DNA of 26,866 nucleotides from a virus. The stretch lies in IMG/VR virus record IMGVR_UViG_3300033273_000738, positions 1 through 26,866 of that record; one strand, 5' to 3'. Every line of letters starts with the position of its first letter. The stretch's first letter is position 1. Position numbers and translations under genes: made by a program. The notes under the pieces were generated by a model that did not search any database, was not told the DNA's origin, and saw only the letters and a list, made by a program, of their open reading frames with translations. Below are positions 22,017-22,650 of this stretch, piece after piece.

Positions 22017-22026
22017 ATTATAACAT
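22017..22026 (-). promoter_or_regulatory. Extended -10 promoter of the ThyX-gp59 block
   Basis: Minus-strand TGTTATAAT (TGnTATAAT) lies directly behind the terminator of the upstream mini-operon. The -35 region (TTTCAT, 17 bases upstream) is poor and falls in the terminator loop, so the promoter relies on the extended -10. The expected start is near 22010. Confidence 0.6.
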
Positions 22027-22052
22027 AAAAAAAGAGGGGATGAAACCCCTCT
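22026..22052 (-). terminator. Strong intrinsic terminator of the riboswitch mini-operon
   Basis: On the minus strand AGAGGGG, six-base loop TTTCAT, CCCCTCT, followed by a run of seven T residues. It starts 5 bases after the stop of the 30-residue peptide and is the clearest rho-independent terminator in the window. Confidence 0.85.
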
Positions 22053-22056
22053 GTGA

Positions 22057-22149
22057 TTATTTGGAAAGAACTTTAATCTCTCCGTATATCAGTGATAGAA
22101 ATGCTACAGAACTTAGGGATACGATCCCGGCAATTTGTAGTGCTCCCAT
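22057..22149 (-). CDS. Putative single-span membrane peptide (30 aa)
   Basis: MGALQIAGIVSLSSVAFLSL, then IYGEIKVLSK. The first 22 residues form one hydrophobic helix; the end is short and basic. It starts one base after the DUF4278 stop, so it could be translated by re-initiation, and it ends 5 bases before the terminator stem. Its size and form are like small photosystem or NDH/cytochrome subunits, but it matches none that I know. A chance open frame cannot be ruled out. Confidence 0.42.
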   Translation of the reverse strand: MGALQIAGIVSLSSVAFLSLIYGEIKVLSK

Positions 22150-22150
22150 A

Positions 22151-22315
22151 TCACTTTACATAAGTGCGACCACGATAGCAGAAGGTGCCGTGAATTTCTT
22201 CACCAGTTTGCTTGCACTCATGCTTTACACCACGATAGGTGGTATGAAGAATTTGTGCATCGTGCAGTGCTGCTGCTTTGTCAATCTGCTTCTTGATCAG
22301 GTTTAAGGTGTTCAT
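22151..22315 (-). CDS. DUF4278-like small protein (54 aa)
   Basis: MNTLNLIKKQIDKAAALHDA, QILHTTYRGVKHECKQTGEE, IHGTFCYRGRTYVK. The two YRG motifs (TTYRGVKHE and FCYRGRTYVK) are the hallmark of DUF4278, a family I know from cyanobacteria and cyanophages. A good Shine-Dalgarno (CAGGAG) lies 7-8 bases upstream. It is the second gene behind the glutamine-riboswitch-like leader. Function unknown. Confidence 0.75.
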   Translation of the reverse strand: MNTLNLIKKQIDKAAALHDAQILHTTYRGVKHECKQTGEEIHGTFCYRGRTYVK

Positions 22316-22360
22316 TTGTCTACTCCTGAAATACTAGGGTGAATTTAATCTCCCGTTCCT

Positions 22361-22528
22361 TCAGTCGTTTGCGTCCCAGTACCAATCACAACCTGGAGTT
22401 GAGTCCCTTACGGTTTCAACTAATTCAAGTTTTAGTTCATCATCTAGATACTTATTTGTTATAATCCGAAACATGATTGCATCGGATTGTTGGCAACTAA
22501 GTGTGGTATAAAGTAGAAATTCTACCAT
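22361..22528 (-). CDS. Small acidic protein directly behind the riboswitch (55 aa)
   Basis: MVEFLLYTTLSCQQSDAIMF, RIITNKYLDDELKLELVETV, RDSTPGCDWYWDAND. Acidic with a Trp/Asp-rich end. Similar 55-60 residue proteins with the FLLYTT-SC...DSTP-C-W-DAND pattern occur in T4-like cyanophages as far as I remember, so this is a real gene. It is the downstream peptide of the leader described at 22529-22615. Unlike the glutamine synthetase inactivating factors IF7/IF17, which are basic, it is acidic, so direct homology to them is unlikely. Function unknown; a role tied to nitrogen status is inferred from the riboswitch. Confidence 0.72.
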   Translation of the reverse strand: MVEFLLYTTLSCQQSDAIMFRIITNKYLDDELKLELVETVRDSTPGCDWYWDAND

Positions 22529-22615
22529 GGGATGAACGCTCCGTTCCGCGACTTACTTGCGTCCAGAGGTGTCTTTCTATGCTATGTGCCTAGCGACTGC
22601 CTCTTGGATGAACGT
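22529..22615 (-). promoter_or_regulatory. Glutamine riboswitch, Downstream-peptide type (candidate)
   Basis: The leader begins about where transcription should start. It shows the conserved blocks of the glutamine-binding glnA/Downstream-peptide RNAs in order: CGTTCATCC (22614-22606), a long hairpin, GGACGCAAGTAAG (22564-22552) and GGAACGGAGCG (22547-22537). P1 pairs CGTTC (22614-22610) with GAACG (22546-22542). The inner stem pairs TCC-A(A)GAGG (22608-22600) with CCTCT-GGA (22569-22562), and GCTA/TAGC forms a small hairpin inside. A second CGTTCATCC copy (22538-22530) lies just before the ATG and can also pair with GAACG, giving an alternative fold around the GGAG ribosome-binding site. Family recognition is from memory. 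Confidence 0.75.
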
Positions 22616-22621
22616 AGGTCT

Positions 22622-22650
22622 ATTATAGACCGTTGCAATTATTTAGTCAA
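22622..22650 (-). promoter_or_regulatory. Sigma70 promoter of the riboswitch mini-operon
   Basis: Minus-strand TTGACT (22650-22645), 17-base spacer, TATAAT (22627-22622). The start is expected near 22615, exactly at the riboswitch. The -35 box overlaps CTAAATAATT (22648-22639), the late-promoter-like motif, so the same spot might be read both early and late. Confidence 0.75.

Follow-up and report, generated by a model that had tools for sequence, protein, structure and literature searches.

A riboswitch is usually thought of as sitting upstream of the gene under its control, and open reading frames (ORFs) in the peripheral loops of a folded RNA are familiar from self-splicing introns. For the glutamine riboswitches of cyanobacteria, DUF4278 genes are known partners (PMC6316151), and genes of this type are switched ON by these RNAs (PMC6316151, PMC11288750). 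Glutamine riboswitches in cyanophages have also been published earlier (PMC9964418, PMC9602691). In the T4-like cyanophage S-CREM1, a 99-nt match of 44 bits to RF01739 (glnA RNA, type I) is reported as a single glnA RNA (PMC9964418). For the Downstream-peptide RNAs (type II, RF01704), an associated conserved amino acid sequence is reportedly noted in the supplement of Weinberg 2010. We also observed type I glutamine riboswitches in genome contigs of SAR116, SAR86 and other proteobacteria (eight loci), where they precede apparent ammonium-transporter and glutamate-synthase genes (identified by reading of the sequences); the class is thus not confined to cyanobacteria.

The locus described here lies in a 26,866-nt stretch of viral DNA (IMG/VR record IMGVR_UViG_3300033273_000738), referred to as the window. 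The contig carries T4-like cyanophage genes (tail fibre, PhoH, ThyX), and its virus is a virus of ocean cyanobacteria, a T4-like cyanophage. An initial annotation, made from the letters alone, had proposed a minus-strand unit with a promoter, a glutamine riboswitch of the Downstream-peptide type, three tiny genes and a terminator; the parts themselves were all confirmed (minus strand throughout). The sigma-70-like promoter TTGACT-N17-TATAAT (22650-22622) matches the consensus at 11 of 12 positions, and in the 143 distinct upstream regions listed from relatives the pattern TTGNNN-17-TANNNT was counted 104 times. The leader blocks CGTTCATCC (22614-22606), GGACGCAAGTAAG (22564-22552) and GGAACGGAGCG (22547-22537) are present, as are the genes for proteins of 55 aa (22528-22361; phrog_504, E 3.3e-24), 54 aa (22315-22151; phrog_545, E 1.7e-31) and 30 aa (22149-22057). 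The intrinsic terminator (22052-22026) consists of a hairpin with a 7-bp stem (22052-22033) and a T run. The 30-aa product is a hydrophobic peptide with homologues in 45 cyanophage records, and the 10 of these records that were listed carry no annotation for it. A perfect dyad, GGTCTA-TAA-TAGACC (22631-22617), overlaps the -10 element and lies directly 5' of the aptamer. Its arms vary between relatives while complementarity is kept (mean stem 5.87 versus 3.81 for shuffled arms in the 143 distinct upstream regions listed), and it may act as an operator or form a 5' RNA hairpin, the latter in transcripts from a late-type promoter (CTAAATA) that overlaps the sigma-70-like one.

Over the whole window, no Rfam family reached its gathering score (35 bits for RF01739 and 33 bits for RF01704). 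The expectation that the leader would be recognized by Rfam therefore failed in its literal form: at a relaxed threshold, RF01739 matched 22616-22538 with 15.2 bits. Relatives with short loops do pass the cut-off of this family (42.9 bits in L074, 40.3 bits in L057 and 38.4 bits in L044), and in all three the match sits on the outer aptamer defined below. The RNA is nearer to glnA (type I) than to the Downstream-peptide type originally proposed; RF01739 was the sole family listed in the window, RF01704 was not listed there at E 10, and in relatives the latter scored 21.6-26.4 bits, below its cut-off, with one single copy at 34.0 bits in L044. The window has the type I features of a P1 helix CGUUC/GGAACG and a P2 helix ending in GACG; an E-loop AGUA...GAA with P3 between its halves is found only when two copies of the aptamer are taken together. 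The division of the aptamer over two copies and its interruption by an ORF are the likely reason for the low RF01739 score of the window. With a covariance model of our own, R1, made from short-loop relatives, the match in the window was confined to copy 1 (20.7 bits) and did not extend across the 155-nt ORF. What stands of the original proposal is that a cyanophage has a cis-regulatory RNA of the glutamine riboswitch kind with a DUF4278 gene behind it; the type, the copy number and the placement of the genes had to be revised. The ligand of the leader RNA is probably glutamine.

Two copies of the aptamer are present where a single one had been assumed. Copy 1 (CGTTC…GGACGCAAGTA…GGAACG) spans 22614-22542. 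The 5' half of copy 2 (CGTTCATCCC, 22538-22528) starts immediately ahead of the ATG of the 55-aa gene, and its 3' half (22378-22354, with GGGACGCAAACGACTGAAGGAACG at 22377-22354) spans the 3' end of this gene and beyond. The gene, which had been placed merely downstream of the switch, sits within the P2 loop of the second copy. In the loci listed, GGAACG is followed by a second CGTTCATCC and then, about 15-21 nt or about 130-200 nt further on, by the 3' half GGACGCAAACGACTGAAGGAACG; the second 5' half was seen in 114 of 124 first-scan loci (among the matches listed). A plain single aptamer upstream of a gene is ruled out by this second half-aptamer.

The strands of the two copies are best arranged as follows. 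CGUUC of copy 1 (22614-22610) and GGAACG of copy 2 (22359-22354) form the 5' and 3' strands of an outer P1 helix (P1a), as indicated by RNAalifold on 28 short-loop relatives and by the RF01739 matches above cut-off. P1a is followed by the P2a arm (UCCAAGAGG ... CCUCUGGA, 22608-22562), which is closed in the minimum-free-energy (MFE) fold, covaries in relatives and has no ORF in its loop in this phage; by the conserved junction GACGCAAGTA (22563-22554; J2/3 with the AGUA half of the E-loop), kept in the aligned relatives and present in the RF01739 consensus; and by the P3 5' strand AGUCG (22553-22549). GGAACG of copy 1 (22547-22542) and CGUUC of copy 2 (22538-22534) then form an inner hairpin (P1b), seen with RNAalifold and in the MFE folds of the window and of L057. 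The P2b 5' arm UCCCA (22532-22528) overlaps the first base of the embedded AUG and pairs across the ORF with the 3' arm UGGGA (22378-22374) in the MFE fold. The second conserved junction, GACGCAAA (22375-22368), and the P3 3' strand CGACU (22367-22363), which pairs with AGUCG of copy 1, complete the RNA. In the 28 short-loop relatives, RNAalifold recovered CGUUC1/GGAACG2 and GGAACG1/CGUUC2 along with both P2 stems; for this full structure 96.7% of the cells were paired and the covariation was 0.252 versus 0.081 in shuffled controls (0/500), a type of control that leaves the shared ancestry of the loci in place. An inner P3-like hairpin, CGC[GGAACGGA]GCG, corresponding to the type II pseudoknot topology, was considered and rejected, being inconsistent across classes. 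In L089 (6502-6828) we observed three half-repeats in succession: first a copy-1 type element, next an ORF-bearing P2, and last a short double aptamer that is complete and scores 60.4 bits with R1.

The same blocks can be read as two separate tandem glutamine riboswitches that are pseudo-cooperative, each with a P1 helix of its own (CGUUC1/GGAACG1 and CGUUC2/GGAACG2) and with the small gene between them or within the second. Doublets of glutamine riboswitches are common, with 157 reported (PMC9481103), both CGUUC and GGAACG are present in each copy, and single copies are scored best by RF01739 in L021 and L030; L021 belongs to the AGCCGACUC class, which has regular C-A mismatches in P3. Covariation does not distinguish two separate P1 helices from the interlocked pairing, as neither the P1a nor the P1b strands vary. 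However, the E-loop is divided in the phages, with AGUA but no GAA in copy 1 and GAA but no AGUA in copy 2, whereas the cellular type I aptamers that were retrieved, with a search pattern to which the phage form would conform as well, carry both within one copy. In addition, the P3 strands covary between the copies (AGUCA/UGACU, GGUCG/CGACU, AGUUG/CAACU, AGCCGACAC/AUGCCGACU and others), and the interlocked pairing is the one chosen by RNAalifold and by the above-threshold RF01739 matches. We consider the tandem reading rather unlikely; tandem pairing remains as a rival or as an alternative state, and the gene would even then lie inside the P2 loop of the second aptamer. By comparative sequence analysis the leader is a two-copy aptamer, with pairing across the ORF, and we are highly confident of the nested two-copy architecture. 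In the explanation that we favour, the copies interlock and the P2 loops are slots for small protein genes.

The 55-aa ORF fills the space between the two halves of copy 2 and is thus the loop of the second P2 helix. In relatives, the second half-aptamer brackets an ORF in at least 74 loci (at least 72 distinct P2b ORFs), and the start codon lies 10-11 nt past CGTTC2 in all. Members of the long class have one ORF of 49-67 codons filling the space, and in most loci its stop codon is the UGA or UAA within CUGAAGG/CUAAAGG; the window has the UGA at 22363-22361, within CUGAAGG of the aptamer core. The P2b stem across ORFs measured 5.81 bp for real and 5.18 bp for shuffled partners (0/2000; listed loci, with shared ancestry remaining), and the MFE fold of the window closes P2b across its ORF. 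The P2a loop holds an ORF in at least 38 distinct cases among the relatives, including S-TIM54, S-CAM1 and S-8S56, where the first P2 helix encloses a 66-aa ORF as well; the 38 listed belong to several families (phrog_6471, a MTKALLLLAWVP group and others). For P2a, the stem across ORFs was 5.61 versus 4.00 when shuffled (0/2000), with UA, AU, CG and GC all occurring at one pair. Where the arms are UCUUAUG/CAUAAGA, CAU is the pairing partner of the start codon and UUA that of the stop codon UAA. The loci listed comprise at least 30 with short P2a and P2b loops, at least 75 with a short P2a and a long P2b loop, at least 11 with an ORF in P2a and a short P2b loop and at least 28 with an ORF in P2a and a long P2b loop, with another 12 unresolved; the counts are of loci retrieved and not population frequencies. 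The first pattern scan of viral contigs, which gave at least 120 loci, admitted only short P2a loops.

Differences between relatives at codon positions 1/2/3 numbered 461/207/818 for the P2b ORFs and 538/361/1088 for the P2a ORFs, from which it follows that the loop ORFs are protein genes under coding selection. The loop gene family has two invariant Cys, and the 55-aa protein is predicted to be a helical hairpin (pLDDT 78.5). Several loop proteins appear, on reading of their sequences, to have signal-peptide-like N-termini. No significant match was obtained for the loop proteins in Pfam or for the 55-aa protein with Foldseek against the PDB, and no consistent Shine-Dalgarno (SD) sequence precedes the embedded gene across loci. 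In the phage records OP053362.1, HQ634177.1 and OQ504984.1, the nested loop genes appear as ORFs labelled hypothetical proteins (e.g. UYE97314.1, SXBG_00104), and the examined stretches of these three records carry no riboswitch annotation.

The 3' end of the embedded gene also belongs to the RNA, as the junction GACGCAAA doubles as the codons for D-A-N. Where the motif lies, Asp-Ala is encoded as GAC GCA in every one of 69 ORFs, whereas the same ORFs elsewhere use GAC in 44/212 and GCA in 96/241 cases. The motif is retained where the ORF stops just short of it (L060, L085) or ends before it (S-TIM54, S-CAM1), and where the ORF crosses GACGC in another frame (L089). One could suppose that the phages carry a decayed, host-derived riboswitch whose blocks persist by descent, with the second half kept mainly as the C-terminus WDAND of the protein and nothing being switched. 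The WDAND end is indeed conserved as protein in most ORFs, and the window scores far under the Rfam cut-off. The protein sequence WDAND alone is nevertheless ruled out as the cause of conservation by the frozen synonymous sites, the other frames and the early stops; moreover, conservation continues past the stop codon, the identical RNA is found in ORF-less relatives, and compensatory changes in P2a, P2b and P3 go together with covariation at the SD of the next gene (see below). Decay is thus highly improbable. Taking the relatives together, the conservation of the ORF end is attributed to the RNA and not to the protein, and this segment is, on comparative grounds, dual coding.

The 54-aa protein encoded downstream has invariant YRG motifs. 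Its assignment to DUF4278 holds at the level of the family: 33 of 33 relatives match PF14105 with E values of 0.1 or less, the best being 2.3e-7, and the window protein alone scores 15.7 bits, under the curated cut-off of 25.3. DUF4278 is the family of the N-terminus of IF17, the glutamine synthetase inactivating factor. The IF7-like C-terminal inhibitory domain of IF17 (GifB) is absent from the 54-aa protein, for which DUF4278 was the only family reported with E 1 as the limit. Its predicted fold starts with a helix, after which come two beta hairpins, and Foldseek against the PDB gave no significant match. The link to nitrogen status suggested initially is well founded, because DUF4278 genes partner cyanobacterial glutamine riboswitches (PMC6316151). 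The presence of such a riboswitch in a cyanophage is not new, as it has been reported before (PMC9964418, PMC9602691); what is new here is the architecture.

The SD sequence AGGAG of the DUF4278 gene (22327-22323) lies 7 nt ahead of its ATG. Adjoining it, UUUCAG (22331-22326) can pair with CUGAAG of the aptamer core (22364-22359), so that the anti-SD element extends over 22364-22326; the initial annotation had overlooked this pairing. In the listed loci, CU[A/G]AAG of copy 2 faces UU[U/C]AGGAG with A-U in 26, G-C in 26, G-U in 15 and A-C in 0 cases (Fisher p 4e-8, a value that overstates independence because the loci share ancestry). By this comparison the core segment of the aptamer and the SD region are shown to covary, as would be expected if the core masked the SD in the open aptamer. 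Published work on glutamine-ON control of DUF4278-type genes in cyanobacteria is in keeping with this. Separately, seven loci have a conserved insert, ACGGATC-hairpin-AAGGTT, between the second GGAACG and the SD; in L004, Rfam at E 1 listed nothing at this insert.

The position of the stop codon allows a different account, in which the embedded gene is translated regardless of ligand, ribosomes stopping at UGA/UAA block the CURAAG-SD pairing, and the DUF4278 gene is translationally coupled with the aptamer only modulating. The stop codon falls exactly in CURAAG in most listed loci, and P2 brings start and stop together. On the other hand, at least 30 units are ORF-less in both loops and at least 11 have an ORF only in P2a; units without a P2b ORF keep the anti-SD pairing (7 cases only); and the stop precedes the core in L060, L085, S-TIM54 and S-CAM1. 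Coupling as the main mode of control is, in our judgement, unlikely.

We favour a scheme in which ligand and ribosome act on the nested double aptamer. With plentiful glutamine, the outer aptamer would close (P1a, P2a, E-loop and P3) and keep CURAAG off the SD region, allowing translation of the DUF4278 gene; in this closed state P1b and P2b would bury the start region of the loop gene and lower its translation. With little glutamine, the aptamer would open, CURAAG would mask the SD of the DUF4278 gene and the loop gene would become readable, and ribosomes that cross the loop gene and stop in the aptamer core would hold the aptamer open. A single RNA could thereby have opposite effects on two genes, and the DUF4278 product, a relative of the IF17 N-terminal domain, would adjust nitrogen assimilation in the host. 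We infer from the sequences that the RNA binds glutamine, in which direction it switches and that the nested gene is translated. Glutamine-ON control of the DUF4278 gene appears fairly probable, and the same may be said of the nested two-copy architecture together with glutamine-ON control; opposite control of the loop gene by the same RNA is put forward tentatively. As a possible generalization, held with some reserve, marine T4-like cyanophages would use a novel type of regulatory RNA, an interlocked double metabolite aptamer with hairpin loops that are interchangeable slots for whole genes, and the ligand would fold the RNA around a gene, pair its start and stop regions and switch nested and downstream genes oppositely.

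In 415 Synechococcus and Prochlorococcus phage records we found all or part of the unit that runs from the 3' half of copy 1 as far as the DUF4278 gene, and the leader blocks were found again in more than 100 viral contigs by pattern scans; the unit is therefore not a chance match, which the covariation rules out as well. In hundreds of abundant marine phages the aptamer itself incorporates genes, and a single regulatory slot can be shared by several small genes that are unrelated to one another. The architecture would explain how Rfam can miss cyanophage glutamine switches and offers a directly testable case in which translation may be coupled to ligand sensing, and the DUF4278 (IF17-related) protein would link phage infection to the nitrogen state of the host. 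In the searchable literature, outside of which key subscription papers fall, we found no description of a riboswitch with genes in its loops; an earlier partial notice is possible.

Compared with the type II (Downstream-peptide, RF01704) RNAs, the phage unit shares the ACGCA junction, a short protein gene nearby and the DUF4278 association seen in picocyanobacteria (PMC6316151), but the peptide gene lies inside the RNA and not after it, and relatives score mostly below the cut-off. The S-CREM1 glnA riboswitch (PMC9964418) is also from a T4-like cyanophage, and at 99 nt it is as long as a double aptamer with short loops should be; the passages of that report that were consulted mention neither two copies nor nested genes. 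Self-splicing introns similarly combine a folded RNA with a protein gene in a loop, but they are ribozymes whereas the phage RNA is a putative metabolite sensor, and the phage loop genes have no Pfam family. The type I glutamine riboswitch (glnA RNA, RF01739) has the same CGUUCA-P2-GACGNAAGUA-P3-GAAGGAACG core with a DUF4278 gene downstream, and short-loop relatives pass its cut-off; in the phage, however, the core is built from two copies, the P3 arm holds the inner copy and a protein gene takes the place of one P2 loop. Like the tandem glutamine riboswitches (PMC9481103), the phage unit has two copies ahead of one gene, but these copies share P3, split the E-loop and carry genes in their loops; unlike a tandem of complete aptamers, neither copy is complete alone, the E-loop halves being divided between them.
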